DNA of 64,000 nt from Polytrichum commune (taxonomy: Eukaryota; Streptophyta; Polytrichopsida; Polytrichales; Polytrichaceae). How positions within the stretch are numbered: position 1 is the first letter of the stretch; each line of letters opens with the position of its first letter. The position numbers were made by a program, and so were the translations under genes. This document shows positions 21,386 to 60,105 of the stretch, piece after piece. The notes beneath the pieces are model-generated. The model was given only the letters and a program-made list of their open reading frames with translations. It did not search any database and had not been told where the DNA came from. The stretch is taken from contig OX485804.1 in the NCBI GenBank assembly GCA_950295325.1, forward strand, positions 44,380,429 to 44,444,428, read 5' to 3'.

Positions 21386-22343
21386 GATTGTACCCTGAGT
21401 GTACACAAATAACATAGGTCAATACCTAAATTATGAATAATTATATATTATATTAATCTAAGTAATGCAAAAATAAAACAAATGTTTATATTTCTTAAAA
21501 CAAAATTAGATTTCTTGGACTTGATAATATATTACATACTTGTTATGCACATAATAAAAAATAATTCACTATCCTAAAGGTTTCCATAAAACAAATTGAA
21601 CATTGGAGCAAAACAACATCAAGAACATTGAGTTTTTGTACCTGTTTGTAAGATATTGTAAGTCAAGTGCAATTTTGGAATTGCTATAGGTTCACCAATC
21701 GTATTTGTATATATGGACCTGCCATGTATAATATAAGTTATTAATTTCAACCAAGCATAGATATGTCTATACATCTACATTTATCAAATGTCATTGTTTT
21801 GTTAAAAAATTCAATAGAATATTTATATATATCATATTCCAATAAAATTTTAAATCTAGGAAATTGAAAAGAATAAGAAACCATAACAGAGCAAAATTCC
21901 ACCATATGCATGCGAAATTATATATTATATGTGATTAATATAACTAAGCAAAAAACTTGTTAATATTTCATTTTTTACTAGTTTCACGTTCATACTTCTA
22001 CATTGAAAATCTAAAGGGCAAAAATTATATATATAAAGGGTAAAAAATTCAGATCACTAAAAGTGAACAATATCTAAGGGCTCTCACCTGCAATATTGTG
22101 TGATGATTCCAAAAGACTTGGCAATCCCTCCACGAAGGGTTTTATAGTCTCATACTGTGAGAAAAAAACTAAAAAATCATAAACACAACTTTTCTAAAAC
22201 TTAAGTTTACTTTAGTCCCACTATTCTAAAACTATCTTTTACTTAAGACCTATTGACATCTGCAATGTCATTCTCAGTCTCCAATCTCATTTCTACTACA
22301 CCATTCACTTTCCGATTGTCACTCTTGAGTTCATGTTGTTCCG
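21386..22343. other. Upstream of the ParB-like gene, AT-rich
   Basis: The region is AT-rich with T-rich intron-like tracts and probably holds the promoter and any 5' exons of the minus-strand gene ending at 17429. I could not define a further exon with confidence. Confidence 0.4.
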
Positions 22344-34731: not shown

Positions 34732-35420
34732 TCAGCTCCCATCCGAGGAGTCTTCACGATCAGACTCTAGAGCTTCATTATCACAGAATTCAATACATCT
34801 ACCTGGATAAGATTTAGGAATAACAGTACGATAAAATCCACTAGCTAGTTCAATTGCAGTGTCATTTGCGTAGGAAGGAAGATCCCAAGTTTTTGGAGGA
34901 CTTGGATAAAACGTAGGGTCACAAAAGAAAGGGCGGTGACTAGGATAGCTCATTGGTCCATATCTGCAGTTTCCAAAAGCACCATGGTTAGGGCTCCATA
35001 TTAGATACAACAACGCTCAAAAGTAAAACAAATGTATGATAAAATGTTCAACAAACTCACTTACTGAATCGAGACCTCTTCACGATTATGGGGACCACAA
35101 GTACATCGCCCTCGGGGTCCTCACTAATTGCCGTTGCTCCAGAAGTGACCTCTGGAGCAACACTCGAACGAATGAAGGGTTTAAGTACGGCATGGAAAAT
35201 GGCCTCATCAGCCTCCAATGCCACAATGTGACGCTTGACGTTGCGGCACGCATGGATGGGAGATCCTACAATAAAAAGAATGACAATAAAATTAGTGTGA
35301 TTTCTCTGGAACTAACAACAAACAGTTAAAGATGTCATATGGAAGATTGAATTAACATACCCGTAGCAGCAGTGCAGTCTAAAACAACATCCCCAGGGGA
35401 GGTATATCTTGCTATGCGTG
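34732..35420 (-). pseudogene. C-terminal relic of a ParB-methyltransferase gene
   Basis: On the minus strand, about 35420-35361 encodes RYTSPGDVVLDCTAATG, an AdoMet-binding motif I. It ends at a GTATGT donor. The exon 35265-35065 continues with ACRNVKRHIVALEADEAIF, the segment that ends in the acidic ribose-binding residue. The frame 34963-34732 encodes a tail with DLPSYAND, matching the LPSYAEN tail of the gene at 41446-47884. Motif I here is nearer to the canonical D-x-x-x-G-x-G type than in the younger gene. Everything upstream (ParB-like part, motif IV) is missing. At ~35400 it is joined, out of frame, to a transposase fragment. Confidence 0.7.
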
Positions 35421-36074
35421 GCTTGAGGCGTACGCTCAACGTGCTCCTCGAGAAGTGCATTGATACGCTTTCGGCTGTCTCTGCAGTCTCCAACCTTCAC
35501 TGGATGTTGATGAGTTCCGATATGAATGCAGGCTCTTTGGGAGGACTCCTTCCCGTGGATGTAGAATATTTTCGCCTCGCATAGTGCAATGCATTTGGGA
35601 GGCTCTTTGCAGATCCTGCACACAAGAGTACATCCGGATGGCACAATGCCAGAGAGAGGGAAAGGCTCTTTAGTGAAACCATCAAATTCCGTGTCATTGA
35701 CCTTAGAGGTACGATGGGCGCATTGAAGGTAATCACAATTTGGGTTTTGGCATTGGAGATGGCCAACACAGGTAGAGGAACGAAATGAAAGGCCAACGTC
35801 GTTTGTAATGTTGGTGGTTTGAGTCTTCGTCCAAACATGGCCATCATATTGCTTGTCCATGCCGTCCATAGACTTGGCCCTGGTTTGAGATGATGAGACT
35901 TCTGCTGCAGGGAGGACAAATAACTGGGTACCATCGAAACAAGGGGGAAGGTGATTAACCTCTTGGATTTTGAGTTTATCGTAATCTATTTTCTTGAGGA
36001 CGCTCTTACTACCGGGCATAGAACCAAGACGACGAAGACATTGAACTATAGGTTGAGGAGGTTTAGACATAGAC
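35400..36074 (-). pseudogene. Older MULE transposase, zinc-finger fragment (3' of the insertion)
   Basis: The minus-strand frame aligns with the start of the catalytic part of the intact transposase: SMDGMDK, a Cys-rich RSSTCVGHLQCQNPNCDY-type stretch and a terminal H-x-H (GTHQHP), a WRKY-GCM1-like zinc finger. Homology stops abruptly near HSKI, where methyltransferase sequence begins. The 5' part of the same gene lies 12 kb away at 48091-48614, and the two read in one frame across the 9-bp target duplication. The DDE and SWIM domains are absent. Confidence 0.75.
36066..36074. other. 9-bp target-site duplication (left)
   Basis: GACATAGAC directly precedes the left end of the 12-kb element and recurs at 48082-48090 directly after its right end. 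Nine bases is the standard duplication length of Mutator-like elements. Confidence 0.88.
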
Positions 36075-36153
36075 GGAGGGAAGCTATCTTATGAGCGATG
36101 AGCAGTGAGCGGTGAGCGGTGAGCAGTAACACATGAGCAATGAGCAGTAACAT
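36075..36153 (+). repeat. Left terminal inverted repeat of the 12-kb MULE
   Basis: The first ~22 bases match the right end with one indel and two changes. Then follow degenerate 9-11 bp repeats of TGAGC(G/A)(G/A)TGAGC, two of them spaced by AGTAACA(C/T)A. Confidence 0.85.
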
Positions 36154-36289
36154 ATGAGCAATGATTCCAAACTTAGTAAAGACACACGGGTTTAGGGTAC
36201 ACAACCAAAATTTTGACAAATTAATTGCATATTTTCAATTGTAAATTGCCAATATTTTAAATGAAGCACAAGTGAAAGGGCCCTATTTC

Positions 36290-36530
36290 CATGGATCATT
36301 TAAAACACTTTCAATTCATTGTTGATTTTTATTATAATAATCCAAACCAATACATGTCATTTATTGACATCCTTATACATGTAGTTACAACCAACACTTG
36401 CACAACTACTCACATTCCACAACACCAGCAAGTTCAAGTAGGTGCATAACCTCATTATACGTACATGTAGGTGCCATAATTGTGAGCCACTCAAACTGCT
36501 CACGGGTTGAATTAAGGCCCATAATCTACA
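36290..36530 (-). repeat. Partial duplicate of transposase 3' end
   Basis: This block is similar to 36845-37040, which covers the last codons of the transposase and its 3' flank (shared words CCAGCAAGTTCAAGTAG, ACATGTCAT and TACATGTAGGTGC/TATGTAGGTGC). It is diverged and no longer open, so it is a tandem duplicate of the gene end inside the element. Confidence 0.7.
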
Positions 36531-36579
36531 AATGAAAGGAAATTAGATATTAGAAATAGTCAATATGTAGGTAACTACT

Positions 36580-36790
36580 AGGTTTTGAGACATCCGCCTG
36601 TGGATGCGAGTTGTGTAAGAGACTGGTATTAGGTCTGTATCAACCCGGGTTCGAATCCGGTTGGTTACATTGACTGGTGCTATCCCAAATTGAGCTAGTG
36701 ATAAAGTAGGAATAATCTATAGGCGGATACCAAGAAGACGTTACTACGCAGATGTACGTAGAATCTTCTCAATTATTTTTTATTTTTAGA
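36580..36790 (+). mobile_element. Possible tRNA-derived SINE
   Basis: A canonical pol III B box, GGTTCGAATCC, lies at 36648-36658, with an A-box-like GTGGATGCGAGTTG ~45 bp upstream. About 130 bp downstream is a T-rich tail (36770-36786). No cloverleaf acceptor stem can be formed, so it is not a tRNA gene. It sits between the duplicated transposase ends. Confidence 0.45.
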
Positions 36791-36960
36791 AACTTGTTAT
36801 TATTTATCCATGTCAATCAATCAAACCGCTCACGGTTGGGTCGTACTGAATCATTTGAAATACTTCCAGCCCATTGCTGATTTTTATTATAAAAATCCAA
36901 ACCAAAACATGTCATATTTTGACATTCAAATATATGGTACTTAATAGACCATTTGCAATA

Positions 36961-39900
36961 CTACTCACACTCTACGATACCAGCAAGTTCAAGTAGTCGC
37001 ATGACCTCGTTATAGGTATATGTAGGTGCATGAATGAACTTATCACTCTCGTAATCCACCTTGCACAAAAATCTAAACACATAATAAAGATGTTTACAAT
37101 ACACCCATTTTCCTTTCTTTCCCAATGCATGAGAGGACATTTTCGTGAAATCCGGGCATGTGCAATGCGGGATGTCGCCAATTGTGACATGGTAGGTGAT
37201 ATCCTGCTTGGAGACAATGTTGATTATCACTCCAAAGCCCGGATATGGAATGGCAGTGACCCCAACCACATAGTAACCCTCCATGAGTCCGGCGCTCTCC
37301 CATTTGTTTTTGTGATCCGCTAGCGGTGCTGTTGGATTACGACGCACTGTCTTCCCAAACCTGAATGTAGGGTGGGCGTCCGGGTTTGGTGGCATAGAAA
37401 AATGCGAGCGAGGGATGGGAAGAGTTGCAATTGTTGAAAGCCTACGACGAGGGGACAATGCCTCCCTCTGCTGTAGTTGAAATCCAGCATCTTCAAGTGC
37501 CAAAACCTCCTCTCGCGATAGATTGGTACCTATCTTCACCGGCCACGTGTTGGATACTATAGGCCAGTCCAACACATATTTCTTCTTACTGCCACTCACA
37601 CAACGTTTGATGTCGTTAGGGCAAAACCAAAATTCATACTCCACATTGTTGGGAGAGCGAAATTCCTTCCTGAGCCCTTTGTTTGTTGGAGCAGGTGTGC
37701 CATGTTTCCCAGTCCCGACTTTGGCATTGCACATAGTCCCTGTGATGGCCTGCAGTGCCCAACATCGTTTGGCTGAGTTGGGTGGTAATCTTGCAATGTG
37801 CCAGTTGGAAGCAAGACAATCAGTCTCTAACACGGATGTAGTATGAGCCACACCATGAATTGCAGAACTTAACGATTTCCCTATGCGTTGACGAGTTGCT
37901 CGGGTGTTCGGACGGGGAATGGAATAGTTCACTTTGTCGGGTCGATGAGAGTCACAATCAGCACCCGGTGGTAGGTTGAGTTTGCGTTTGGTGGAACCAA
38001 AGAGCTCTGACCCTTCCAATGCACAATCTCTAGTGTTGACGTCTTCTGCCCCTGGATAAGACTTCATGGCATCGGCCAACATTTTTGGATCTCCACACCT
38101 TGCAGCCGCTTTGAATTTCAAGGATGCCGAATCAGGACCTTTACCATCAGACCCCCCTTTCAACCATGTCCGGTAATTTGCAATTTGCATGAAAGCACGG
38201 ATCATGTCATCCACTGTAGCTTCATATAAACAAATCATCTTGTTGCCGGACTGTTGGAGCCATTTGTTGTGTACAGTCTCTGCAAGGTTGCATGTTGGCA
38301 TTTCCGCACGCTCTTCTATTGTCATATCCTATGAACAACACACAAATACAAGGATAAGACAAACATAAGATAGATTATATATTTAGGTTTGGGTCGTTCA
38401 ACCCAAAATGGCTGCCACGTTTGGGTCGAACGACCCAAACTGCCTACAAGGTTTGGGTCGAACGACCCAAACTGCCTACAAGGTTTGGGTCGAACGACCT
38501 AAACTGTTTGCGTAGTTTGGGTCGTTCGACCCAAAATGGCTGCCACGTTTGGGTCGAACGACCCAAACTGCCTGCCACATTTGGGTCGTTCGACCCAAAC
38601 TGCATACAAGGTTTGGGTCGAACGACCCAAACTATTTGTTGTTTGTTGTGTACAGTCTCTGCAAGGTTGCATATTGGCATTCCCGTACGCTCTTCTATTG
38701 TCATATCCTATGAACAATACAGAAAGACAAAGATAAGAAAAACATAAGATATATTACATTGAATAATGAAGTTTGATATGCACTTACAAGTAGCATATGG
38801 CCACCCCATTGTCTGTAACGAAAGTGCCAAAATCCCAACCATTCTGAAAGGCCAAGGATGCCTTCCTCGGAGGCAGCTCCAGATGACAACCACCAAGAAC
38901 GAATCACATGGTACTTGGTCTCAGCGTCGTCCATTGTTTTCGCGTCTTTGTAATCCTTGCATATTTGTTTGTGTTGAAATTGCAAGGATGGTTTGATATA
39001 CTTTTGGGTCACCTTATCCAAGCTTGCGGACCAATGGAAAAGACATGTACGCTCACGTGCAACCATGGGTAGACTTGGATCACCATCCCCGTAAATCGCC
39101 CTCACCGCATTCCAATTAGCTTGAGCACTATCAGCCATAAACCCTTTGAAGTTTACGTATGGTACACCATTTTCTGCCATGACAGCATTCAAATTTTCCC
39201 AAAAGAGAATTTGTGTTGCACCATCTTCAGATTGCATGTCACAACACGCAATAGTCAACACTTTACAATATCGACTGTCGTACACATGGCAAGCCATGGT
39301 CGTCCAGTCCTTCAAACGTTTGACATGGTCAAACATAATCCATGAATTCTCCATATCCCCACCGACTTGCATCCTCTTCACAAGCTCCACACCACTACCT
39401 GGAAGGTCTACAGACATCTTGAAAACAAACACTTTGTCCTTTGACTGCCCTGGGAACCGACTACCATGGACGAATTTGAAAGCAGAGTGGTCTTTGAGCG
39501 CCATAATACTATCCATAGTTCCCATTCCACTACGCAAAAAACGCTTTGATCCAGATACAAAGTTACGACAATTTGGAGACGCAAGAGTGCTGAATTTGTC
39601 CATGACGACCTCTAGGGATGAACCAACCAAGTGATGGCCTTCGACATTTGCGGGAGATTTGAGAAGGTAATCGGCCAAGAATTGTTTGCTCGCCGCCATA
39701 ACTATGGCTGAATTTTTTGCTGTGGGTATTTTCAATACTTCATTTGCAACGCATTGGTATGCCATGTCCAATGATTCACGGCATGTGCCATTGGCCACAG
39801 GGTGATCATGTACACCAAGATGAATGCAAGCCCTGGACATTCCAACGGATGTGGAGTGGATGTATATGATTCGAGCATTACACAAAGCAATGCACACAGG

Positions 39901-40923
39901 TGTGGACCGACATACCTTACACTCGACAGTGGACTTAGTAGGGGGAACAACACCCACAGCAAATGGGATAGGAGTTGAACCGGCCCATTCCGTGTTGTTC
40001 CGGAGGCCCCCATTGCGATTCATGTAATCACAGTAGTCATTATGACATTGGAGATGACCAGCACAAGTAGAGCGCCGGAAGGACAGTCGAAAGTCATTTT
40101 GGATATTCGTGGTTTTGGTGGTGCACCAAGGATGATCGTCACACATTTTGTCCATGCCGTCCATTGAGCGACCATACGTACTTGGAGCTTTGAATGCCAC
40201 AGGATGCAAGAGAAACAAAACATCACCATTAAAAGAAGATGGTAAGTACTTGACTTCACGAACATCTATACTGTCAAAATCAATGGATGCAAGATCGGAC
40301 TTTGATCTTTTTCTTGACTTTGTCAGCTTCAAGGCATCAACCATAGTCAACCCTGTAGATGAAGGTGAATGGTGTAGTGGAGGACGTTGAGAAGGTCAGA
40401 TTTGGGGAACCACCTTCTTGTACATAAGACTGCAAGGGGATTTGGCTACATGTATAGGAAGTTGGGAAGGAGTAGAATGAACACTTCTAAATGGAAATGG
40501 CGATGTGTTTGAAAGATCAATAGATGCACAAATGTCATCTTTTGAATCTGATAGCACAAACACACTATCATCAAGGGGTTCCACCTTAACAGGTGCGATA
40601 GAGGGAATTTGAACTGTGGATGTACCGGATTCGTTTGTCAAAATGACAGTTGAAGCTTGCATCTGAGACTCAGAAAGTCCTATCACCCTAAATGAACCAG
40701 GTCCTAAGATCCACATAAAACCAACATCAGTTTTATTTTTTGGAACCAAAATCGTTTCATACACCTCTCCATCTGCAGAGTACATCTCATGCTCTAAATA
40801 CATGGTTCCTATCTGGAGGTTGAATCTCAAACTAAGTAAATCCTCTGAAACACTCACATGACCATCATCTTGGAGTGGCAAGATGAAGGGAACAAAAGAT
40901 CCATGAGCTCTAATGGTAGCCAT
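36961..40923 (-). CDS. Large MULE transposase: N-terminal novel domain, WRKY-GCM1-like zinc finger, DDE, SWIM
   Basis: Two exons (40923-38788 and 38328-36961) give 1168 codons, phase 0 at the junction. One in-frame TGA at 40396-40398 (codon 176) splits it after a ~175-residue N-terminal region; the frame then stays open. N-terminal part: a compact beta-rich-looking domain shared with the older copy, then a SUMO-interaction-like FVLSDS. Residues about 250-375: Cys/His cluster RRSTCAGHLQCHNDYC, CKVC and HDHP, a WRKY-GCM1-type zinc finger. Residues about 560-635: MULE DDE landmarks (CCDMQSEDG; FMADSAQANWNAV; CLFHW). Residues about 1100-1130: SWIM zinc finger (HCTCPDF...CKHLYYVF). Such enzymes cut and reinsert the element at its inverted repeats. 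The TGA may mean two proteins, readthrough or decay (CGA to TGA). It is divergent from the methyltransferase gene. Confidence 0.8.
38388..38632. repeat. Palindrome array in transposase intron (32-bp unit, ~8 copies)
   Basis: Each 32-bp unit holds a palindrome TTTGGGTCGAACGACCCAAA (or with TT at the centre) plus a ~12-bp spacer such as CTGCCTACAAGG. Eight units follow one another. The array lies in the intron between the two transposase exons and shows the same unit design as 43247-43790. Confidence 0.92.
38637..38760 (-). repeat. Duplicated intron-exon boundary beside the palindrome array
   Basis: This block repeats 38263-38375: the acceptor, and the start of exon 2 (DMTIEER...CNLAETVHNK) with its upstream intron. 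The palindrome array lies between the two copies. Either acceptor (38707 or 38328) could be used; only 38328 leads into the long C-terminal exon. Confidence 0.8.
40396..40398 (-). other. In-frame TGA in the transposase frame
   Basis: On the minus strand ATC TGA CCT interrupts a frame that is otherwise continuous from 40923 to 38788. The frame resumes with PSQRPP and an internal Met at 40344. No GT/AG intron removes it while keeping phase; the candidate 61-bp intron would shift the frame. Confidence 0.8.
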
Positions 40924-41445
40924 AGAAAATCAAAAGAACATATGAACAACACATCACAAAAATATGGGGTGAATGTTGCTTTTGTATAGAGTTGTGTGAG
41001 GAAATGAATGGAAATGAAAACGTGTGATACAATAATGGATGGAGATGAAAGCGTGTGATACATAGCATCTAATAATACAGAAGTGGACATAACACAATAA
41101 TAGTCAGAGAATATTTATGAGCAAGATATACACAAAATGGCGTCAAATACTAAAAGTATTGGTAGAAAACAAAAATATATATGTGTGGACTGACGTAGAT
41201 GTAGAAAGAATTAAAATTGGTTGGAAAAATAAATTATTGCTCATTATGAATAGAACAAAGTAGGTGTCAGAAAATTTTGACGGATATAACAAAAATAAAC
41301 ACATAATGACAAACGCGTCGAAATATCTCGCTCATTGAACGCCAATTACAACATGTGATCGTAATATACGCCGGATTTTGTGAGATAGATACATTGGAAG
41401 AATAAATGATAGTACCTGATAGAAAACATATCATAGACACCAACG
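40924..41445. promoter_or_regulatory. Divergent intergenic region (bidirectional promoter by position)
   Basis: These 522 bp separate the starts of the transposase (minus) and methyltransferase (plus) genes. A repeated GGAAATGAAAACGTGTGATACA-like text occurs twice near 41010-41065 (GAAA(A/G)CGTGTGATACA). No TATA box is convincing. The promoter role is inferred from gene orientation only. Confidence 0.45.
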
Positions 41446-44400
41446 ATGGTGGACGATGTAGAGAGAACACCCGTGAGGCCGAAGAGAAGACGTAGGAAAG
41501 CTTTGTATTTCACTTCCGAGAAAAAGAGGTTCAAACTGAGTGTGGGAAAGAAGAATGCAAATAAGGAAGGGAAAAAAAACTTGTTGATTCCGGTAGAAGA
41601 AACTATGAAGACACTGGATTTTGATGCGATGGAGGATGATGAAGGTGCAAAGAGCAAAGAAGATATAGATGATCGTATATCAGAGTCCGAATTGAAGACG
41701 GGTTCAAAGAAGACGACAAACAAAAAGGTAAGTCAGTTCAACGTTCACATAATTTGATAGTGCATAAGTTGTAAGTTAGGACGGAGAACCTTGTACGTTC
41801 ACTCACATATCATGTAGTAGCAATTTATAGAAGTTATAAATTGGAGAGGAAAAAACCTATACGTTAATGCACATGGTATATAACAGAAATTTAGGAAGGC
41901 TAGAAGTCAGGAGGAGAACACACAGGGTTTATAAGAGCAACTTAGGAGGCGAGAAGTTGGTAGGTAAAATCCTGTACGCTAACGCACAGGGTTTATAAGA
42001 GCAACTTAGGGAGGCCAAAAGTTGGGAGCTAAAACCCTGTACGTTAACGCACAGGGTTTGTAAGAGCAATTTAGGAGGCAAAAAATTGGGAGGAGAAACC
42101 CTGTGCGTTAACGCACAGGGTTTGCAAGAGCAACTTAGGAGGCAAAAAGTTGGGAGGAGAAACCCTCTGCGTTAACGCACAAGATTTGCAAGAGCAACTT
42201 AGGAGGCAAAAAGTTGGGAGGAAAAACCATATGCGTTAACGCACAGGGTTTGTAAGAGCAACTTAGGAGGCAAAAAGTTGGGAGTAGAAACCCTGTGCGT
42301 TAACGCACAAGGTTTGCAAGACCAACTTAGGAGGCAAAAAGTTGGGAGGAGAAACCCTGTGCATTAACGCACAGGGTTTGTAAGAGCAACTTAGGAAGGC
42401 CAAAAGTTGGGAGGTAAAACGACTAGGAGAGCCTAAAAGTAAACAAATATTTATTGTATGAATTTAAATCGATCTTCAGAGCGTAGGAACAAAAAAACCA
42501 TTCAAAACGGGGTTAGAATGCAAGAAATGAGAAATATGTCTACTCAAGTATTCATGCAATACGTTATAGGAGCTAGAAAATGACACAAAATAGCATAATT
42601 TTTTTTTTACCCCGAAACCCAAAATCTACGAGGTCGCCCAAAACAAGGAAATAGATAGAAGAATGAGAAAAGAAAATGATTTCAAACCAAAACAAAATAT
42701 AAGAAGATTTTGTAGCTACGGAGATTTAGATAATATAGCATATTTTTTATTTATTTTTTGGACCCCATTAGCATTTTTTCCAGATTTTACAAGTTTTGGC
42801 AAATCTACCAATTCCAGACAAATTAAAAAAAAAACAGTTTTTAGCAAATTCAAGTCTCGGCCCTGTGCGATTAACGCACAGGCCTTATGCGCTAACGCAC
42901 AGTGGCCTCAAAGTTGCCAGCGCAGACCCTGTGCGTTAACGCACGGGGTCTACTTGCCTAGCTAAAGGCTTCACAAAGTTGGGCAAGTAGACCCTGTGCG
43001 TTAACGCACAGGGTCTGCGCTGGCAACTTTCTAGCGGCTATGCGGGGCACGAAGAGCCACGCTAAATATGGCCGCAGGGACGAGTAGTATAAATTGCCAC
43101 ACCTTCAAAGCATTCAGTCTTTTTTCTCTCATCTATCGGACCGGAGCTCGTCGCTGCAAGCTCTCTCATCTACAGGTGCAATACAAGGTTCGTTTGTACT
43201 TTCGTGATGACTAGGTAATTGCGCATAATTAGGCGTAAATTACGGGCAGTTTGGGTCGGTCGACCCAAACTGTCTGCCTGGTTTGGGTCGCTCGACCCAA
43301 ACTGTCGACCTAGTTTGGGTCGAGCGACCCAAACTGTCGACCTAGTTTGGGTCGGTCGACCCAAACTGTCGGCCTAGTTTGGGTCGAGCGACCCAAACTG
43401 TCGGCCCAGTTTGGGTCGACCGACCGAAACTGTCGGCCCAGTTTGGGTCGACCGACCGAAACTGTCGGCCCAGTTTGGGTCGACCGAAACTGTCGGCCCA
43501 GTTTGGGTCGACCGACCGAAACTGTCGGCCCAGTTTGGGTCGACCGACCCAAACTGTCGGCCCAGTTTGGGTCGACCGACCCAAACTGTCGCCCTAGTTT
43601 GGGTCGACCGACCCAAACTGTCCGTCTAGTTTAGGGTCGGTGGACCCAAACTGTCCGTCTAGTTTGGGTCGCTCGACCCAAACTGTGAGCATGGTTTGGG
43701 TCGTTCGACCCAAACTGGCTGTAGGCGGTTTGGGTCGCTCGATCGAAACCGCGTGGACAGTTTGGGTCGTTCGACCCAAACCTCGCGCCCAACTTTTGTA
43801 GACCTGTAGTTGGACACACAGACCCTGTGCGTTAACGCACAGGGTCTGCCCTTGTAGTTTTGGGGTGAGCGGCCAGCCTTATCGTACAATATTTAAAGGT
43901 GCAAATGGTAGTGTCTAGAATCATTTTTGTTATTCTTCCTTGTGTTCGTGGTATTCTGTTGTTATTGTTGTTGCTATTGCTGTTGTTTTTGTAATGTTAT
44001 TGCTAATGTGTTTCTACTGGTTTTGAAATATTTATGAAACTTATTTCATTTGTTTTAGGACCAATCAATGGATTTGGATAGAACGACTGTTATTTCTACT
44101 GGTGATGATTCTACAATGCATTCAACTCAAGATCGTCCATCTCAACAAGTTCATGTTCATCAGGACATATCGTCAAATCTTCATAATAAGAAAAAGAAAA
44201 AAATAAATGAATCTCTCGATGATTTTGACTCGGATGAAGATAATGATGGTGACAATAAAACCTATCAACAGAAAGTCTGGGAGCTTACGGACAAGTGAAA
44301 GGTTAATTCCACTTCAACAATTTCATCAATCCGTGCTGGACCGAAATCTCGTTTGCGTGTACCTTTATGTCGCATGGTTCCAATGCCTATTGTGCGTCTT

Positions 44401-47400
44401 GCTTTGAGAGGCGACATCACTAAATTGGAGGCTGACTTTTTCAATGGTTATCGTGATGGTGACCGTGTGTTTTATCTATCGGCTACCGACTCTAAGGGAA
44501 ATTTTCAATTTGTAGATGACGAGGTTCGTGCATCTTGGAGCCCAAATTGGGCTCAAGCTAATGCGGTGTTTGAAACTGAGTTAAATGCCGATCCTTCATT
44601 TACATCATACAAGAACAAGATGTTATTCATATGGGATGGTAATCACAGATTTTTTGCTTGGAAAAGTTATATTGACCGCTTGCATACCGAAGATTACGAG
44701 CGTCATGTCGTTGTGGATTCCATCATTTTGGCGTCCGAGCTTCATGACATTCCAAGTTTGTTGACTGCTATGCACGACATCAACAAGTAATGTTTTTACT
44801 TCTTTATTTTCATTTATTTCTGGTTTGTATTTTGTTATTTGAATTATATCATCCTAAATCCATAAATTCAATATTTTTTCAGGTCAACAGAAAACTCTCA
44901 CGTTTCTACCAATTTGGTGCATACTTTGTATCGGATGCAAAGTATTGGCACCATGCCTTTGACTTCTTTTAAAAAACAACTGGATCCTAGAAGTTATAAG
45001 CGATGTGAGGAGAAGTCCGTTGAAACTTGGTATTCTTTGACGCGGCCAATTTTTCTTGATTATATGTACAGTGTAAGTTTTTCTAGCATTTCCTACTATG
45101 TTTTTAATGTTTATTTATCTTTCATTTAGATCACATCTATATGTACTTATTAATTTTGGATTTTGTTTGATTTTTCAGCAAGAACTTGCCGAGGCTAGCG
45201 ATATTGCTCTCAACCTTTACAATGAAACCCATCCTCTTGAACGAACTTCAGAAGGAGTTTCTAAAGCAATGTCCGCAGCTGTCAACAAAAAACGTGCAAT
45301 GTTGTCTTCTAGTTTTACAAAACAACTAGCAATTGCTGACATCAACCTCACCCCTGCTTTTCTTGAAGAAATTAAGCACCATTGGGGTTCATTTTCGGTG
45401 CCTGAAATGTTACAAGAGAAACTTCATCGTGTTGCTGTTAGTAATGTGGATCCAGATGTCAAAGTCGGATGGCTCAAGCTTTGGAATGGCAATAGATTTG
45501 ACAAAGATGCATTGCATTTCCCGAAATCACCCCTCTCTGATTCTGCACTTGATGATTGGTTATCAAAGGCTACATATTGGGCACAGTTAGAGAAAAAAGC
45601 TATTGAAGAGCTTCAAAGTATTCTTTCATCTCCTCTTCAATTGCCTGCAGATGTGCCTACTCTCTCCGAATATATCCAAACCTGGAAGTTTGCGGCTTTC
45701 AATTCAATATTCTATCGTGAATTCAAAAGCGGAAAAGTAAAAAAACACAACGTTTGGGATGAGCAACCGAATATTGATCTTGCTATGAAGCGTGTTCTAT
45801 ACAGGTACAACTTATTCTTTACTATTTCTTGATATTTTTTCATTACATTTTACTTTTCATTCAATATTTGGCTCATAATATTTTTGTGTGTAGGTATTTC
45901 CGATATGTTTTGATTCCGCACAAATGCGTTATAGGAGAACCTCGTTTTTTTCCAAATTGGCGTGACACTGGTGCGGAAGACTCATGCATGTTCACTACTG
46001 AGATTTGTTTGGATTGGTCGCTCCCACACTATGAGGATTGTGGTTGGTATCTTGATTGTCCTAAGGATGCATGTCCGTCAAGTGAGAAGACAATCCGTCA
46101 GATAAATGATGCCAAAAATGTAGATCCTCGTGATACTGCAATTTTGCAAGCACAAATTGTGCAGCTTAAACTTAGAGAGCCAGAACCAAAAGAGACAAAA
46201 CGTCGTAAGAGAAAACATGTTCCTGAAACCAAAATACAAGGTCAATCGGAAATTTCACAACATGAAGAATTGCTTGTTCTTTCCAATGATTTGGATAAGA
46301 ATACACTTGGAGGCGAAAGTTCAAAATCCGGGTGCGATGTATTGGAATTTCATTACTCTAGCACCTATGACGCTATTCATCGTGCGCCAACGAATGTTTT
46401 GAGAAAAGAGTTATTCATACTGAAGAACTTTCTTACGCTCTCTTTTGCTCGATCTACTGCTGTCAAGAACAAGTCTGAAGGGGTTGAAGTAAGCCCTCCT
46501 GAGTGGATCCAATGGCGGGCATTTCTTGAAAATGTAAGTAATCTTCATTTTGTATTTTCTGTAATGTTCTTACTTTCATTTGGATTTTATTTTGTGTCTT
46601 ATATTGTGATATGTTGTGGTATTTCAGTTCAAAGACAATCGCGAATTTCATGTCATGGGAAGTCCGACTCCATTTGCCGTTGACTTGGTTTTTCTGCAAT
46701 TTCCGGACGGTTTTGACTTCAACCTCTCCAATAGACCTGCTGAAATTCCTCTTTGGAATAAATATGACAAGAACTGGATGGTTGCAACAATGTCCTTGTG
46801 CAAGTCCATCTTGTCTGATGATGGCGTCCTCATAGTATTTTCTGCTATCGATATGCAAACCAAGAAGGTTTTGAATTCAACCTTACACAACGGCAACATG
46901 AAAGTTCTTAGGACTTTTATTTGCCTCAATTCGTACATGGTGTTTAAGGATCCGGAGTCTCCAACCTACTCCGTAAGTATAACACATCACAATTGTTTCT
47001 ATTTAATTATTTTGGTGTTATTTGCATTGTATATAGTTTTAACACAATTTACATTTTTTTTGTAGACTCCGGCATTTATGGCTCATGTCTTGGTAAGGGA
47101 TTTTACTACCAAAAAATCCACGAGACAACCAAACTCCACTTTTTTCGGCACTGGATTGAAAAGCAAAAACTTGCTTTTCAATTTTGTGGATGAAAAAAAC
47201 ACGCTTCTTCAAAAATCGGGAAGACCTTGGAGGGGGCCATATCAAAAATCGCCGCGTTTTTTTCAAGATCTTATTGAATTGTTTACACCATCGAATGGAC
47301 GCGTTGTTGATTTGACATGTTCCACTGGAGCTTCTATCCTAGCAACACGCGCATGTGGCAAACATCTTCTTGCATTTGAGGGTGATAATGACATGTTTGA

Positions 47401-47884
47401 GCACATATTGAAACCGCTTTTGGAAAAGGTTTTGAAAGAGGGGTCATCTAAGGAGAATATACAAGATCTCACAAAAGAAGATGATGACCTCTCGGATGAG
47501 GAGATGCTTGAATTTGAGTGTGAGTAAGTTTTGATACAAATTTTTTTTATTCAATTCATTCGTTTCATTCAATTCATTGGTTCATTTTTATTTCTTCACA
47601 TTATTTACATGTTTCATCGATTTGATTTCAGGAATACGATTGGAAAGAGGACATGTCTCCCGTTTTGGGCACATAGACAATTCCTACTAAGTCCAAGTCG
47701 TAGCCCGCGTCTCCCATCATATGCCGAGAATGTTGCAATTGCAATGTTGAATCTCGAAGATTCGGATCCAAATGAAGAATCTTGCTATAGTTCCAAAATC
47801 AATTCGCAATGCAAAGGTGCTCGAATATATATAGATGACGAGGCAAAAGATAGTTTCATGTCTAGTGCTACTACTTATGAATAA
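41446..47884 (+). CDS. ParB-like plus beta-order DNA-methyltransferase fusion protein of the MULE
   Basis: Eight exons (41446-41727, 44059-44786, 44883-45072, 45179-45804, 45894-46533, 46628-46972, 47066-47523, 47632-47884) join at GT/AG with agreeing phases into 1174 codons. One in-frame TGA lies at 44296-44298. Exon 1 is basic (PKRRRRKA) then acidic, likely nuclear-targeting. Near residues 205-340 is a ParB/sulfiredoxin-like domain (IWDGNHRFFAW; later MHDIN). A long helical middle follows. Near 823-1060 is a methyltransferase-like domain with the motif IV position first (VDLVFLQFPDG, where DPPY/DPPW is expected), then LSDDGVLIVFSA, and motif I later (GRVVDLTCSTGAS...LLAFEGDND). This is the beta-class N4/N6 order. 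The AdoMet site looks usable; the catalytic tetrapeptide is replaced, so activity is uncertain. The ParB part suggests DNA binding or nuclease/CTP chemistry. Roles in element methylation or partition are inference. Confidence 0.68.
41886..42420. repeat. Palindrome array in intron 1 (64-bp unit, ~8 copies)
   Basis: Each ~64-bp unit contains the palindrome CCTGTGCGTTAACGCACAGG (extending to ~26 bp in the best copies) and a spacer GTAAGAGCAACTTAGGAGGC plus AAAAAGTTGGGAGGAGAAA. Copies at 42030-42380 are the most regular. The unit is exactly twice 32 bp, the period of the second palindrome array. Confidence 0.92.
42421..42862. other. Intron 1, no repeats or exon seen
   Basis: This is an AT-rich part of methyltransferase intron 1 between two palindrome groups. 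Poly-A and poly-T tracts are present (near 42600 and 42830). No conserved exon is visible. Confidence 0.5.
42910..43030. repeat. Nested inverted repeat: 49-bp arms each holding a palindrome
   Basis: The arms at 42910-42958 and 42982-43030 are inverted copies with about one mismatch and a ~23-bp loop. Each arm contains the CCTGTGCGTTAACGCAC palindrome, so the structure can fold as a large hairpin or as two small cruciforms. Two degenerate single palindromes precede it (42864-42903). Confidence 0.88.
43247..43790. repeat. Palindrome array in intron 1 (32-bp unit, ~17 copies)
   Basis: Tandem 32-bp units contain GTTTGGGTCG-NN-CGACCCAAAC-type palindromes with variable central pairs (GT, CT, GA, AC, TT) and spacers like TGTCGGCCTA. 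Some copies have the mutated half CGACCGAAAC. Compensated central variation keeps most units symmetrical. This is the same family as 38388-38632. Confidence 0.92.
43822..43850. repeat. Single CCTGTGCGTTAACGCACAGG palindrome
   Basis: An isolated perfect copy, extended by GAC/GTC and flanking C/G to ~28 bp, lies just after the 32-bp palindrome array and ~210 bp before exon 2. Confidence 0.88.
44296..44298 (+). other. In-frame TGA in methyltransferase exon 2
   Basis: AAG TGA AAG interrupts a frame open from 44059 to 44786, upstream of the ParB-like domain. Met codons at 44374 and 44383 could restart translation without loss of that domain. CGA to TGA, a CpG transition, would explain it. Confidence 0.8.
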
Positions 47885-48011
47885 ATTTTTGGACTTCATG
47901 TTGTTTATCCTTCTCAACCCTCTTATTACTAAACCCTAAAATCATCATTTTTAAGGCCACAATTCCACGGTTATAGGATATTGGTGGCCCTATTACCAAA
48001 ATTTCCATCTT
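47885..48011. other. 3' flank of methyltransferase gene
   Basis: This short stretch between the stop codon and the right inverted repeat contains a CTATAACCGTGG-like word (in reverse orientation) also seen near the terminus-like blocks at 33.2-33.8 kb. It probably includes the 3' UTR. Confidence 0.4.
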
Positions 48012-48081
48012 CCTCACTGCTCATAAGTTACCGCTCATCGCTCACCGCTCATTGCTCACCGCTCATAAGATAGCACTCCCC
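48012..48081 (-). repeat. Right terminal inverted repeat of the 12-kb MULE
   Basis: Read on the minus strand it starts GGGGAGTGCTATCTTATGAG and continues with TGAGCGG and TGAGCAA words and a GGTAACTTATGAGC segment, mirroring the left end. Confidence 0.85.
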
Positions 48082-48090
48082 GACATAGAC
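48082..48090. other. 9-bp target-site duplication (right)
   Basis: This is the second copy of GACATAGAC. Removing the element and one copy restores an open reading frame across the junction in the older transposase gene. Confidence 0.88.
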
Positions 48091-48614
48091 GGTACCGAAG
48101 GAGTTAAAGGCACAGAGCGAGAAGGAGAAGGCGTTACATAGGAAGCAGAGGGAAACAAAGGAGGGGAATCATGAACAGCAGCCTTCTGCACTGGTACATC
48201 TTCGTTCGAAGAATCAGACAAGTCTATAACGTTGTCCACATCAGGCTCCGTCTTGACACTTATTACCGGCGGGGTGCTTAAGGAAGAAGTGGATGATCGA
48301 AGAGGAGTAAGAATTTCTCGTGACACTCCCATCTAAGAATCGGGAAGGCCATAAACCCTATACTTTCCCACGCCAAGCTCCCATATGACATTGCCATTGT
48401 CAGTTAGTTTGGAGGTCTCATGCAAGGTTTGAACGACCAATCCAGTATCAGGATTGAAGATCTCACGTTCTACCCAAATTGTACTAGCTTTCAACGAGAA
48501 CCTAATGCTAAGATGAAGGTCAGAGACAGGAGCAATACCATGTTCATCAATGGGGAATAGAATAGGGACACCGATGCCATGGGAACGAAGTTCGGCCATT
48601 GCGGTGGAAGCCAT
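48091..48614 (-). pseudogene. Older MULE transposase, N-terminal part (5' of the insertion)
   Basis: The frame from ATG 48614 aligns with the first ~175 residues of the intact transposase: MAELRSHG versus MATIRAHG, LHLSIRFSLK versus LLSLRFNLQ, and GVGKYRVYGLPDS versus GPGSFRVIGLSES. A TAG at 48333-48335 replaces the CAG seen in the younger copy. Downstream lies an acidic VIDLSDSSNED segment, a good SUMO-interaction-like motif. The frame crosses the 9-bp target duplication and continues at 36074 into the zinc-finger fragment. Confidence 0.78.
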
Positions 48615-48947
48615 GAAGGCAGAAAAATACAAACACAAAGGAACAAAGATGCATAGATACATAAAGAAGAAGAATGGTCAAGACTCAAACGTTGTGATGT
48701 CACCATGTCCAAAACGGAAGGCACAGATGACGAGGAAGCTATCTTGATATATAAAGATTAGAGGAAGGATGCCAAATAGGGAAAACAATGCACGACTGGC
48801 AGAAAGAGGGAAACCCTAACCCTCAAGCACTGGCAATATAAAGAACAATACAAGGAAAGGAAAGGGTTAGTATGTGAGTGAAGCAGAGCGATGCCCTAAG
48901 AGAAGAGGATAGGAGAGAGAGAAGTATTGGGAAACCGGGACGCACAC

Positions 48948-49292: not shown

Positions 49293-49889
49293 GTAAGTTT
49301 GGGCACTAGGGACATATATACATTTAGGTTATTTAAAAAATGGCATTTGAAATTGAGTTATCTAATGTGAATCTTCATGAAGTACATGTTGAATGGATTT
49401 GGAAAATGACCCATAAACCAACCACTGATGTTGTGTGGAATGTTCCCCAAAAAGACAATTGTAGAAAGTTCTCATTTTGTTTAAATGAGTCCATCATCAG
49501 ATGTTGAAGTTGGTGAGAGGGGAGTATATAACCGGACCCTCTCGGAACTGAGAGGGTCAAAGAATAGGTACGAGATTGTCATAGTGTGGCACCGCAACTA
49601 GGCTTTCGGCTCATCACAAATTTCTGCGAGGCGGCCAACTAGCAACCATGGCACATACTACCTAATTAGAGTTTGAAAACATGTCGAGGGGGTCCACCCC
49701 CGATGCCCCTAAGCATACGGCTAGGTGGGAACCAACTACTAGAATCAACCCTAGCGCCTAACCTAACTAAAATTTGCGAAGAGAGTTTGAGAAGAAAGTT
49801 TGCGAATAGGTCATTCGGAGGGAGGAGCCAGGAGCCTCCACTATCGCCCGGCAGAGGCAAGGAGCCTCCACCATCTCTCATTTCTGGAT
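49293..49889. other. Transition from exon 1 donor into the satellite
   Basis: The DNA after the GTAAGT donor is non-coding. It contains the first palindrome of the satellite type at 49535-49558 (GACCCTCTC...GAGAGGGTC), well before the regular array starts. It would be intron 1 of the older gene. Confidence 0.6.
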
Positions 49890-52800
49890 TCTCAAGTGCC
49901 ATGTTTGAGGTTGACATTTCTAGGCTACTGTCATGTTTGAGAATTTGTAATGACTGGGGCACCCTCTCGGTTCCGAGAGGGTGCAGAAATGTGGGTTTTC
50001 AAGTGCCATGTTTGAGTTTCTGATTTCTAGGGTAGAGTTATATTTCAGAATTTGTAAGGTTGGGGCACCCTCTCGAAACGGAGAGGGTGCAGAAAGGTGG
50101 ACTTCAAGGGCCATGTTTGAGTTTCTGATTACTAGGGTAGAGTTATATTTCAGAATTTGTAATGACAGGGGCACCCTCTCGGTTCCGAGAGGGTGCAGAA
50201 ATGTGGATTTCAAGGGCCATGTTTGAATTTCTGATTTCTAGGAGAAAGTGATATTTCAGAACTTGTAAGGTTGGGGCACCCTCTCGGTTCCGAGAGGGTG
50301 GGGAAATATGGATTTGAAGTGCCATGTTTGAGTTTTTGATTTCTAGGAGAAAGTCATATTTGAGAATTTGTAAGGACTGGGGCTCCCTCTCGGAACGGAG
50401 AGGGTGCAGAAATGTGGATTTCAAGGGCAATGTTTGAGTTTCTGATTTCTAGCTAGGGTAGAGTTCTATTTCAGAATTTGTAGGGTTGGGGCACCCTCTC
50501 GGAACGGAGAGGATGCAGAAATCTGGATTTCAGGTGCCATATTTGAGTTTTTGATTCCTAGGCTAGAGTTATATTTCAGAATTTGTAAGGCTGGGGCACC
50601 CTCTCCGTTCCGAGAGGGTGGGGAAATATGGATTTGAAGTCCCATGTTTGAGTTTCTGATTTCTAGGAGAAAGTGATATTTCAAAATTTGTAAGGTTGGG
50701 GCACCCTCTCGGTTTCGAGATGGTGGGGAAATATGGATTTTCAGGTGCCATGCTTGAGTTTTTGATTTCTAGGCTAGAGTTATATTTGAGAATTTGTAAG
50801 GCTCGGGCACCCTCTCGGAACAGAGAGGGTCCAGAAAGGTGGACTTCAAGGGCCATGTTTGGGTTTTTGATTACTAGGGTAGAGTTATATTTCAGAATTT
50901 GTAATGACTGGGGCACCCTCTCCGTTCCGAGAGGGTGCAGAAATGTGGATTTCAAGGGCCATGTTTGAATTTCTGAATTCAAGGCTAGTGTTATATTTGA
51001 GAATTTGTAACGACTGGGGCACGCTCTCCGTTCCGAGAGGGTGGGGAAATATGGATTTGAAGTCCCATGTTTGAGTTTCTGATTTCTAGGAGAAAGTGAT
51101 ATTTCAAAATTTGTAAGGTTGGGGCACCCTCTCGGTTCCGAGATGGTGGGGAAATATGGATTTTCAGGTGCCATGCTTGAGTTTTTGATTTCTAGGCTAG
51201 AGTTATATTTGAGAATTTGTAAGGCTCGGGCACCCTCTCCCAACGGAGACGGTGCAGAAAGGTGGACTTCAAGTGCCATGTTTGAGTTTCTGATTTCTAG
51301 GCTAGAGTTATATTTCAGAATTTGTAAGGACTGGGGCACCCTCTCGGAACCGGGAGGGTGGGGCAATATGGAATTTCAGGTGCCATGTTTGAGTTTTTGA
51401 TTTCTAGGCTAGAGTTATATTAGAGAATTTGTAAGGACTGGGGCACCCTCTCGGTTCCGAGAGGGTGGGCAAATGTGGATTTCAAGTGCCATGTTTGAGT
51501 TTCTGATTTCTAGGAGAAAGTGATATTTCAGAATTTGTAAGGCTGGGGCACCGGAGAGGGTGGGGAAATATGGATTTTCAAGAGCCATGTTTGAGTTTTT
51601 GATTTCTAATAGACTGTCATATTTGAGAATTTGTAAGGACTGGGGCACCCTCTCCGTTCCGAGAGGGTGGGGAAATATGGATTTTCAGGTGCCATGCTTG
51701 AGTTTTTGATTTCTAGGCTAGAGTTATATTTGAGAATTTGTAAGGCTCGGGCACCCTCTCGCAACGGAGACGGTGCAGAAAGGTGGACTTCAAGTGCCAT
51801 GTTTGGGTGGGCAAATGTGGATTTCAAGTGCCATGTTTGAGTTTCTGATTTCTAAGAGAAAGTGATATTTCAGAAGTTGTAAAGTTGGGGCACCCTCTCG
51901 GTTCCGAGAGGGTGGGGAAATGTGGATTTCAAGTGCCATGTTTGAGTTTCTGATTTCTAGGAGAAAGTCATATTTGAGAATTTGTAAGGACTGAGGCTCC
52001 CTCTTGGAACGGAGAGGATGCAGAAATGTGGATTTCAAAGGCCATGTTGGAGTTTCTGATTTTTAGGATAGAGTTATATTTCAGAATTGGTAACGCTGTG
52101 GCACCCGAGAGGGTGGGGAAATATGGATTTTCAAGTGCCATGTTTGAGTTTTTGATTTCTAGTAGAGTGTCATATTTGAGAATTTGTAAGAACAAGGGCA
52201 CCCTCTCGGTTCCAAGAGGGTTCATAAATGTGGGTTCTCAAGTGTCATGTTTGAGTCTTTGATTTCTAGGCTAGTGTCATATTTGAGAACTTGTAAGGAC
52301 TAGGGCACCCTCTTCGTTCCCAGAGGGTGGGGCAATATGGATTTTCAGGTGCCATGTTTGAGTTTCTGATTTCTAAGAGAAAGTGATATTTGAAAATTTG
52401 TAAGGTTAGGGCACCCTCTTGGTTCCGAGAAGGTGGGGAAATGTGGATTTCAAGTGCCATGTTTGACTTTCTGATTTCTAGGCTAGATTTGTATTTGAGA
52501 ATTTGTAAGGACTGGGGCACCCTCTCGGTTCCGAGAGGGTGGGGAAATGTGGAATTTCAGGTGCCATATTTGAATTTTTGATTTCTAGGCTAGAGTTATA
52601 TTTGAGAATTTGTAACGAATGGGGCACCCTCTCGGTTCAGAGAGGGTGGAGAAATGCGGAATTTCAGGTGCCATGTTTGAGTTTCTGATTTCTAAGAGAA
52701 AGTGATATTTCAGAAATTGTAAAGTTGGGGCACCCTCTCGGTTCCGAGAGGGTGGGGAAATGTGGATTTCAAGTGCCATGTTTGAGTTTTTGATTTCTAG

Positions 52801-53756
52801 GCTAGATTTGTATTTGAGAATTTGTAAGAACTGGGGCACCCTCTCGGTTCCGAGAGGGTGGGGCAATATGGAATTTCAAGTGCCATGTTTGAGTTTTTGA
52901 TTTCTACGCTAGAGTTATATTTGAGAATTTGTAAGAACTGGGGCACCCTCTCGGTTCCAAAAATATGGGGAAATGTGGATTTCAAGTGCCATGTTTGAGT
53001 TTCTGATTTCTAAGAGAAAGTGATATTTCAAAATTTATAAGGTTGGGGCACCCTCTCGGTTCCGAGAGGGTGGGGAAATATGGAATTTCAGGTGCCATGT
53101 TTGAGTTTTTGATTTCTAGGGTAGAGTTATATTTCAGAATTTGTAAGGACAGGGGCACCCTCTCGGTTCCGAGAGGGTGAGGAAATGTGGAATTTCAGGT
53201 GCCATGCTTGAATTTTTGATTTCTACGCTAGAGTTATATTTGAGAATTTGTAAGGACTTGGGCACCCTCTCGGTTCCGCGAATGTGGGGAAATGTGGATT
53301 TCAAGTGCCATGTTTGAGTTTCTGATTTCTAAGAGAAAGTGATATTTCAGAAGTTGTAAAGTTGGGGCACCCTCTCGGTTCCGAGAGGGTGGGGAAATGT
53401 GGATTTCAAGTGCCATGTTTGAGTTTTTGATTTCTAGGCTAGATTTGTATTTGAGAATTTGTAAGGACTGGGGCACCCTCTCGGTTCCGAGAGGGTGGGG
53501 AAATGTGGATTTCAAGTGCCATGTTTGAGTTTCTGATTTCTAGGCTAGATTTGTATTTGAGAATTTGTAAGGACTGGGGCACCCTCTCGGTTCCGAGAGG
53601 GTGGGGAAATGTGGAATTTCAGGTGCCATATTTGAGTTTTTGATTTCTAGGCTACAGTTATATTTGAGAATTTGTAAGGACTGGGGCACCCTTTCCGTTC
53701 CGAGAGGGTGGGGAAATGCGGAATTTGAGGTGCCATGTTTGAGTTTCTGATTTCTA

Positions 53757-59700: not shown

Positions 59701-60105
59701 TTCTAGGCTACAGTTATATTTGAGAATTTGTAAGGACTGGGGCACCCTTTCCGTTCCGAGAGGGTGGGGAAATGCGGAATTTGAGGTGCCATGTTTGAGT
59801 TTCTGATTTCTACGCTAGAGTTATATTTGAGAATTTGTAAGAACTGGGGCACCCTCTCGGTTCCAAAAATATGGGGAAATGTGGATTTCAAGTGCCATGT
59901 TTGAGTTTCTGATTTCTAAGAGAAAGTGATATTTCAAAATTTGTAAGGTTGGGGCACCCTCTCGGTTCCAAGAGGGTGGGGAAATATGGAATTTCAGGTG
60001 CCATGTTTGAGTTTCTGATTTCTAGGGTAGAGTTATATTTAAGAATTTGTAAGGACAGGGGCACCCTCTCGGTTCCGAGAGGGTGGGGAAATGTGGAATT
60101 TCAGG
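53757..60105. repeat. 2762-bp higher-order repeat, two full copies and a partial third
   Basis: Monomer variants recur in the same order at an offset of 2762 bp (26 monomers): 53757-56518, 56519-59280, and a partial copy from 59281 to about 60105. The copies differ at only a few positions (for example near 55773/58535 and 56010/58772), so the amplification is recent. Confidence 0.88.

Follow-up and report, generated by a model that had tools for sequence, protein, structure and literature searches.

A Mutator-like transposon of Polytrichum commune carries a ParB-like/methyltransferase-like gene together with arrays of family-specific palindromes

A gene for a ParB-like protein fused to a DNA methyltransferase was placed by an earlier note, made from the letters alone, in a 64,000-nucleotide stretch of Polytrichum commune DNA. 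We compared this whole stretch, hereafter the window (C2:44380429-44444428), with the 408-Mb assembly and its seven large contigs, C1 to C7. The gene is the cargo of a complete element, here called family A1, with terminal inverted repeats (TIRs) whose arms (36083-36144 and 48013-48074) show 89% complementarity (Table 1). A genome search with the A1 cargo protein gave 201 matches with 44 of 3175 candidates scored, so that the copy number drawn from it is a lower bound. Ten genomic copies (c01 to c10) were retrieved for comparison with the window element. Nine were colinear with it almost throughout, although c04, one of the nine, has a rearranged piece; c10 aligned with gaps. Target-site duplications of 10 bp, reading 11 bp where a terminal G is ambiguous, flank the window element and seven of the ten copies (c02, c03, c05, c06, c08, c09, and c10); none was found around c01, c04, and c07. 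Mutator-like elements (MULEs) have TIRs with a target-site duplication of 8 to 11 bp, and the A1 element has both. In the window and in the retrieved copies, the cargo gene and a transposase-like gene are divergent in a fixed arrangement. We class the A1 element as Mutator-like from its ends, the length of its duplications, and the way its genes are arranged. The note had called the gene transposon-borne and the cargo of a Mutator element, and both claims held once the ends and duplications were located, the same gene was found in ten copies, and a divergent transposase-like gene was seen to adjoin it. By eye, the flanking regions 48336-48677 and 35312-36088 on the minus strand read as parts of one transposase-type gene, which the A1 insertion looks to have interrupted.

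Table 1. Features of the A1 element in the window
Feature	Position	Strand	Basis or remark
Left target-site duplication, GACATAGACG	36066..36075	.	duplication flanking the element
Complete TIR element, family A1	36076..48081 (12,006 bp)	.	colinearity with copies, ends, duplications
Left TIR, starts GAGGGAAGCTATCTTATGAGCG	36076..36144	+	inverted-arm match
Transposase-like gene, second exon region, SWIM-like motif	36961..38328	-	PF04434, 13.0 bits, below cut-off of 19.6
32-bp array, palindrome TTTGGGTCGnnCGACCCAAA, transposase intron	38387..38633	.	6 exact sites
Transposase-like gene, first exon region	38701..40929	-	one extra in-frame stop, 40396-40398, in the window copy
ParB-like/methyltransferase-like gene, exon 1	41446..41727	+	rebuilt model, copies
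64-bp array, CCCTGTGCGTTAACGCACAGGG-type units, cargo intron 1	41917..42414	.	one exact CTGTGCGnnnnCGCACAG site
32-bp array, palindrome TTTGGGTCGnnCGACCCAAA, cargo intron 1	43247..43781	.	11 exact sites
Exon 2: acidic stretch, then in-frame TGA (44296-44298), then ParB-like block with IWDGNHR	44059..44786	+	rebuilt model
Exon 3	44883..45072	+	rebuilt model, copies
Exon 4	45179..45804	+	rebuilt model, copies
Exon 5	45894..46533	+	rebuilt model, copies
Exon 6: methyltransferase-like, altered motif IV LQFPDG	46628..46972	+	Pfam, phage profile
Exon 7: methyltransferase-like, motif I region DLTCSTGAS	47066..47523	+	Pfam, phage profile
Exon 8, includes stop codon	47632..47884	+	rebuilt model, copies
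Right TIR	48013..48081	-	inverted-arm match
Right target-site duplication, GACATAGACG	48082..48091	.	duplication flanking the element

The cargo gene was rebuilt with seven introns, all GT-AG, with agreeing phases, giving one frame of 3522 nt that ends with the stop at 47884. Each exon could be located in every one of the ten copies, and 70 of the 80 exon instances are as long as in the window; exon 6 of c04 mapped to a rearranged place. This agreement of ten genomic copies rules out a chance exon model. The proposal of eight exons encoding one protein stands as far as splice sites, frame, and copies are concerned, and fails in the window for an uninterrupted frame, owing to the TGA in exon 2. 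The 3522-nt frame is uninterrupted in four of the ten copies (c02, c03, c06, and c07), and stops or frame shifts occur in the other six. Splice dinucleotides are changed at the exon 3 donor in c02 and c09, at the exon 7 acceptor in c03, and at the exon 8 acceptor in c07 and c08; only c06 is both open and provided with all standard splice sites. The transposase-like gene runs from 40929 to 36961 on the minus strand. Its first exon region is stop-free up to the intron in c02 to c06 and has stops or frame shifts in the window copy, c01, and c07 to c10. No MULE domain of Pfam was matched in this gene, its sole profile match being the subthreshold SWIM match (Table 1). The ratio of nonsynonymous to synonymous substitution rates (dN/dS) of the transposase was 0.40 to 0.47 for c06 against c02 to c05.

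The methyltransferase-like domain was examined at the level of sequence profiles. Exons 6 and 7 matched Pfam N6_N4_Mtase (PF01555) with an E value of 9.6e-4 and 19.6 bits, below the cut-off of 26.7. Motif I and motif IV aligned, in the order IV to I, to a profile of 120 phage ParB-methyltransferases (p=0.001 and p=0.016), and motif IV lies ahead of motif I in the A1 cargo protein, as the note had read it. A sequence search of the Protein Data Bank with the methyltransferase part gave no match. PF01555 had five matches in the genome, three of them on small contigs, and the others led to two near-identical 577-amino-acid (aa) frames, L004 and L005 (98% identical copies), of a sister family, A2. 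The A2 cargo protein is homologous to that of A1, with 23 to 33% identity in three groups (E values of 7.5e-39, 4.7e-20, and 2.6e-15), and its methyltransferase part reached 34.4 bits against PF01555. Because this homologous protein passes the cut-off, the methyltransferase domain of A1 is supported as well. On these alignments, the cargo protein is taken to descend from a permuted (beta-class) amino-methyltransferase. The strong N6_N4_Mtase matches were on the small contigs C10 (47 kb) and C12 (61 kb), as loci L001 to L003; C12 has a gene for a ParB-methyltransferase fusion of phage type, which shares 95% identity with a database protein, and both contigs are probable contamination.

Canonical amino-methyltransferases have [DNS]PP[YFW] as motif IV. 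This motif was absent from the four open A1 copies, three of which read LQFPDG and one LQFPNG; the window also reads LQFPDG, so the catalytic tetrapeptide is altered, as had been noticed. Catalysis is doubtful because of this change (QFPD), and it has probably been lost or altered in the A1 cargo protein. The suggestion that the element modifies or marks its own DNA was not borne out, and the altered motif IV argues against it. An active DNA methyltransferase marking element DNA with N4-methylcytosine (4mC) or N6-methyladenine (6mA), perhaps at the palindromes described below, would fit the PF01555 matches of A1 (below the cut-off) and A2 (above it), and one A2 copy, L005, has DIPY at motif IV. 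Such a role has been suggested for algal transposon proteins (PMC12477816), and bdelloid N4CMT offers a precedent for a eukaryote using an amino-methyltransferase from bacteria (PMC8885841). We nevertheless hold an active enzyme to be very unlikely, given LQFPDG or LQFPNG in the open A1 copies, with the canonical motif absent, and DIPD in L004, the 98%-identical A2 copy.

The ParB-like block precedes the methyltransferase-like domain. A protein search with the whole 999-aa part downstream of the TGA gave no match among 6708 candidates. The length rule and exon-wise gene calls probably account for this miss, because a profile of one exon, exon 2, then recovered 96 proteins (E<=10), all but one with an E value no higher than 1.8e-4. 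Their source labels were jgi, ena, and lgn (one "src"), and none had a precomputed Pfam domain. The motif WD[GD][NI] occurred in 36 of the 96 homologs, with WDGNH in 28 and WDGNHR in 18 of those. A block of the G-x-H-R type, as found in ParB and sulfiredoxin, is thus present in the cargo protein and recurs in its relatives, and this part of the earlier reading stood. The ParB fold itself found no backing. No Pfam family matched the exon-2 block of the window gene, and PF02195 was not among the Pfam matches at E<=1 for 47 members, which gave weak single matches to CB_ParB_C (0.16) and DUF1015 (0.044). The block had no support from the profile of phage ParB-methyltransferases (p=0.26), and a fold search with its predicted structure (predicted local distance difference test, 59.2; predicted template modeling score, 0.52) matched nothing. 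Profile searches spoke for the methyltransferase, below threshold here and above the cut-off in A2, and neither they nor the fold search spoke for ParB. Our ParB-like reading rests on the DGNHR-type motif, on its position ahead of a permuted methyltransferase, and on a published algal architecture.

Next, selection on the cargo gene was estimated. Between the two subfamilies (window, c02, and c03 against c06 and c07; six comparisons), dN/dS was 0.15 to 0.17, and by region it ranged from 0.11 to 0.29 for c03 against c06, with 0.11 in the ParB-like part. These ratios indicate that the cargo protein is under purifying selection, altered motif IV included. The synonymous rate (dS) between subfamilies is 0.40 in the ParB-like part and decreases along the gene to 0.02 at the C terminus, a gradient that points to recombination between subfamilies. 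In some A1 copies, exon 7 has an identity of 64 to 79%, and the other exons there are mostly at about 90% or more; according to the dS gradient and the exon 7 identities, such copies are mosaic. Plant elements can carry captured gene fragments, as Pack-MULEs do (PMC12477816), and the cargo could in principle be a captured passenger without a role. This is hardly credible for a whole multi-exon gene present in many copies with a dN/dS of 0.15 between subfamilies, found in two divergent lineages with the same transposase and with homologous exons in other records. We rejected it on account of the selection on the protein.

The introns and intergenic DNA of A1 carry palindrome arrays of two kinds, GTTTGGGTCGnnCGACCCAAAC and CCCTGTGCGTTAACGCACAGGG. 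Besides the arrays in Table 1, intron 1 contains two further exact CTGTGCGnnnnCGCACAG sites, at 42994 and 43825. Arms and spacers were compared for the 32-bp array of A1 and for a 78-bp array of another family, C. Across 126 units of the 32-bp array (window plus ten copies), mismatches amounted to 0.8% for the arms, 49% for the central two bases, and 35% for the spacer. Most of these units had been picked by exact match, so that the 18 units lying between matches are a fairer test; they gave 5.9% in the arms, 50% in the center, and 33% in the spacer. When 20 units were picked by their spacer, every arm position was at or below 10% mismatch. The arms of the 32-bp array are constant, and the palindromes are family specific. 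Exact TTTGGGTCG sites numbered 0 to 17 per copy in the window and the ten copies, with none in c10, and sites of the other palindrome numbered 2 to 7. Over the genome, TTTGGGTCGNNCGACCCAAA occurred 9731 times, CTGTGCGNNNNCGCACAG 560 times, and TTGTGCGNNNNCGCACAA 54 times, and the reversed control of each occurred 0 times.

The A2 element, described from one copy (L005 plus upstream sequence), allowed protein and palindrome to be compared between families. Its gene order is that of A1, its right end is 84% identical to that of A1, and its transposase, on the strand opposite to the cargo, has 71, 75, and 91% aa identity to A1 in three parts. The array between its two genes consists of TGTTTGTGCGCTGGCGCACAAACA and variants, spaced by about 102 to 105 bp. 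The outer pair varies among T-A, C-G, and G-C; one unit is mismatched there, and one is degraded. The A2 palindrome keeps the A1 core TGTGCG....CGCACA, and CTGTGCGTTAACGCACAG and TTGTGCGCTAGCGCACAA differ symmetrically at two pairs. With 50 of the 54 TTGTGCGNNNNCGCACAA sites listed, 39 were upstream of, and no more than 10 kb away from, one of ten A2-type copies, against 0.04 expected. The other 11 of the 50 listed sites had no such position, and four of them have the A1-type center TTAA. Of 16 A2-type copies considered, ten had a listed TTGTGCGNNNNCGCACAA site of this kind and six had none. A protein-kinase-like, frame-shifted stretch also lies between the A2 transposase and cargo (about 5040-6110 of the joined L056/L005 stretch); pieced together, it gave 29.0 bits for PF00069 (cut-off, 31.7) and 25.5 for PF07714 (cut-off, 23.1).

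Because A1 and A2 have kept their end and transposase while cargo and palindromes changed, the cargo protein is suggested as the binder of the palindromes. Alternatively, the transposase or a host protein may bind the arrays, or the arrays may form RNA hairpins in the introns, with some other role for the cargo protein. The 9731 sites of one palindrome genome-wide and the several array periods would suit this, and for hairpins the arms can pair around a center of 2 to 4 nt. For transposase sites, the conservation is the wrong way round: the A1 and A2 transposases are 71 to 91% identical, while the palindromes have changed on both arms and the cargo is 23 to 33% identical. For an RNA hairpin, free G-U changes would be expected on both arms, yet positions 1 to 7 hold 3 changes among 91 distinct units; 14 C-to-T changes at position 15, on the 3' arm, do keep a G-U pair, however, so that this argument against hairpins is not decisive. 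We regard this group of explanations as unlikely. That the protein and arrays serve the transposition reaction, through complex assembly or timing, and not silencing is supported by cargo and transposase traveling together divergently and by one array inside the transposase intron. Unlike terminal repeats, the arrays are internal, distant from the ends, and variable in number (0 to 17 exact TTTGGGTCG sites), which makes this role quite unlikely in our view.

We propose that the cargo is a sequence-specific, transposon-encoded DNA-binding protein acting against silencing, a reading whose chances we judge to be about even. The second gene of the Mutator-like transposon would join a permuted amino-methyltransferase to a ParB-like block, and its product, with catalysis probably lost or altered, would serve as a sequence-specific DNA binder. 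It would bind the 22-bp palindromes arrayed in the introns and intergenic DNA of its own element. Covering of the array regions by the protein could then protect the element from silencing, and with silencing averted the transposase would be expressed. Both the binding and its anti-silencing outcome are inferred. The note had offered binding to palindromic sites as one possible use of the protein, and this is plausible because the arrays sit inside the element. A bolder extension, which we consider rather unlikely, is that divergent transposon families have turned a phage-type ParB-methyltransferase into a noncatalytic clamp on parS-like arrays, a partition-site-like system of selfish DNA with one palindrome at nearly ten thousand sites.

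Family C bears directly on this proposal. Its representative, L057 (C1:616000-625999), has a multi-exon gene with a DGQH block and, by eye, a C-terminal stretch resembling methyltransferase motif I; a Pfam search of the gene found no ParB-like or methyltransferase domain. Arrays with periods of 78, 35/158, 57, and 36 bp flank and separate its exons, each of them built on the same 22-bp palindrome. In the 78-bp array (17 units), the mismatch was 0 in the arms, 20.6% in the center, and 10.8% in the rest. Outside the palindrome, the consensus of seven arrays of A1 and C agrees at only 26%. A 452-aa exon of family C gave 93 matches (93 of 1237 candidates scored) with 90 to 100% identity; the 30 at 99 to 100% indicate that the family has been recently active. 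Among the palindrome sites listed, six of the seven clusters in C1:0.44-2.16 Mb were assigned to A1 or C; the seventh, at 438k, consists of two sites and is left unassigned. Neighboring CTGTGCG sites or A1 exon matches assigned those at 462k, 475-478k, and 2154-2159k to A1; those assigned to C are 616-626k and, by partly similar site spacing only, 1180-1190k and 2115-2125k.

Several points weigh against the proposed binder. The main difficulty is that family C has the A1 palindrome without visible protein similarity: a BLAST comparison of the A1 and C proteins found nothing significant, yet TTTGGGTCGnnCGACCCAAA is common to both. Because of this sharing between dissimilar proteins, there is no simple correspondence between protein and site; array exchange between elements or a common host factor might explain it. 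The binder of the arrays could also be the transposase or a host factor, and two unlike palindromes in one element need explaining too. In the 64-bp array, only one unit is exact in the window. The TGA at 44296-44298 breaks the exon 2 frame of the window copy, which has an extra stop in the transposase gene as well as in the cargo gene. Close copies (window, c02, and c03) gave a higher cargo dN/dS, 0.52 to 0.68. Finally, the algal proteins have been read as possible DNA modifiers, not as noncatalytic binders (PMC12477816).

Proteins of this kind are known from algae, where ParB-methyltransferase proteins lie opposite the transposase in brown, green, and red algal transposons and are proposed to bind their own transposon (PMC12477816). 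Sola1-1_Ec32 of Ectocarpus has such a ParB-like plus methyltransferase protein opposite its transposase, of 1104 aa compared with 1173 here, in a 21.5-kb Sola1 element, in contrast to the 12-kb Mutator-like TIR element of a plant (PMC12477816). The passage describing it mentions no palindrome arrays; the A1 protein has an altered motif IV, and profiles do not recognize its ParB-like block, so that a homology of the two proteins would be conjectural. For the mechanism, the nearest model with tests behind it comes from Arabidopsis: the VANC proteins of VANDAL elements bind short motifs that are tandemly repeated in intronic and upstream DNA of the element encoding them, and motifs and proteins evolve together (PMC5735166; PMC10398659). 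The repeats occupy VANC21 and VANB21 introns and the region upstream of VANA21 (PMC5735166). Both systems have a transposase and a second gene in a Mutator-like element, with intronic or upstream arrays of noncoding motifs that are family specific alongside the protein (PMC5735166). They differ in that the passages on VANC at hand mention no methyltransferase-like or ParB-like domain (PMC5735166; PMC10398659), and in that the VANC21 motif, YAGTATTAY, is nonpalindromic and arrayed in one orientation (PMC5735166), with binding and anti-silencing being deduced in our case. Fusions of a ParB-CTPase with an N6_N4 methyltransferase in phages and prophages share the order of ParB-like block and permuted amino-methyltransferase and are borne by mobile elements (PMC12704722, in part); the A1 gene differs from them in being eukaryotic, with eight exons, long extra regions, an altered motif IV, and no PF02195 match. 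Our search of the open-licence literature found no paper describing a gene of this kind in a Mutator-like element of a plant, or palindrome arrays associated with one.

Two further comparisons are more distant. VirB is related to ParB, and the name DN4MT1 of Marchantia is set beside N4CMT. Bdelloid N4CMT is, like the putative ancestor of the A1 domain, a bacterial-type permuted amino-methyltransferase in a eukaryote; it is a host gene and an enzyme, whereas the A1 gene is transposon-borne, multicopy, and probably noncatalytic (PMC8885841, which lists a Marchantia 4mC preprint among its references). VirB of Shigella offsets DNA silencing, although it is bacterial and acts against H-NS, and the paper in question concerns its CTP ligand (PMC10653881); any homology to the ParB-like block would be conjectural. 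To what is known from algae, the present data add a plant Mutator-like host, purifying selection on a protein whose motif IV is altered, and candidate sites for its binding. The algal proteins were noted as intriguing and without a known target, and the palindrome arrays offer a candidate one. Protein, candidate site, and control sites can all be read from the genome, hence the proposal is testable. If anti-silencing is true, this would be a second, independent invention beside VANC of Arabidopsis, and thousands of otherwise puzzling palindromes in the genome would be explained.

The window contains other features outside the A1 element. Gene B (17429-21418, minus strand) has a long frame with a DGQH block, a motif-I-like C-terminal stretch by eye, and an apparent frame shift near an acidic stretch. 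It had no significant Pfam match, and BLAST found nothing significant between it and the A1 cargo gene (gene A); a two-sequence comparison with family C gave 32% identity over 69 residues (E value of 2.4e-4). A by-eye reading would put genes B and C in one class with gene A. A 107-bp satellite (49885-64000, about 130 units) has the palindrome CACCCTCTCGGTTCCGAGAGGGTG exact in 59 places, and its center may vary. We rejected conservation of this palindrome, since with 59 exact sites in 131 units it was no better conserved than the rest in an ungapped alignment. A pogo/Tigger-type transposase frame lies at 25229-26494 on the plus strand (DDE_1, E value of 2.8e-34).

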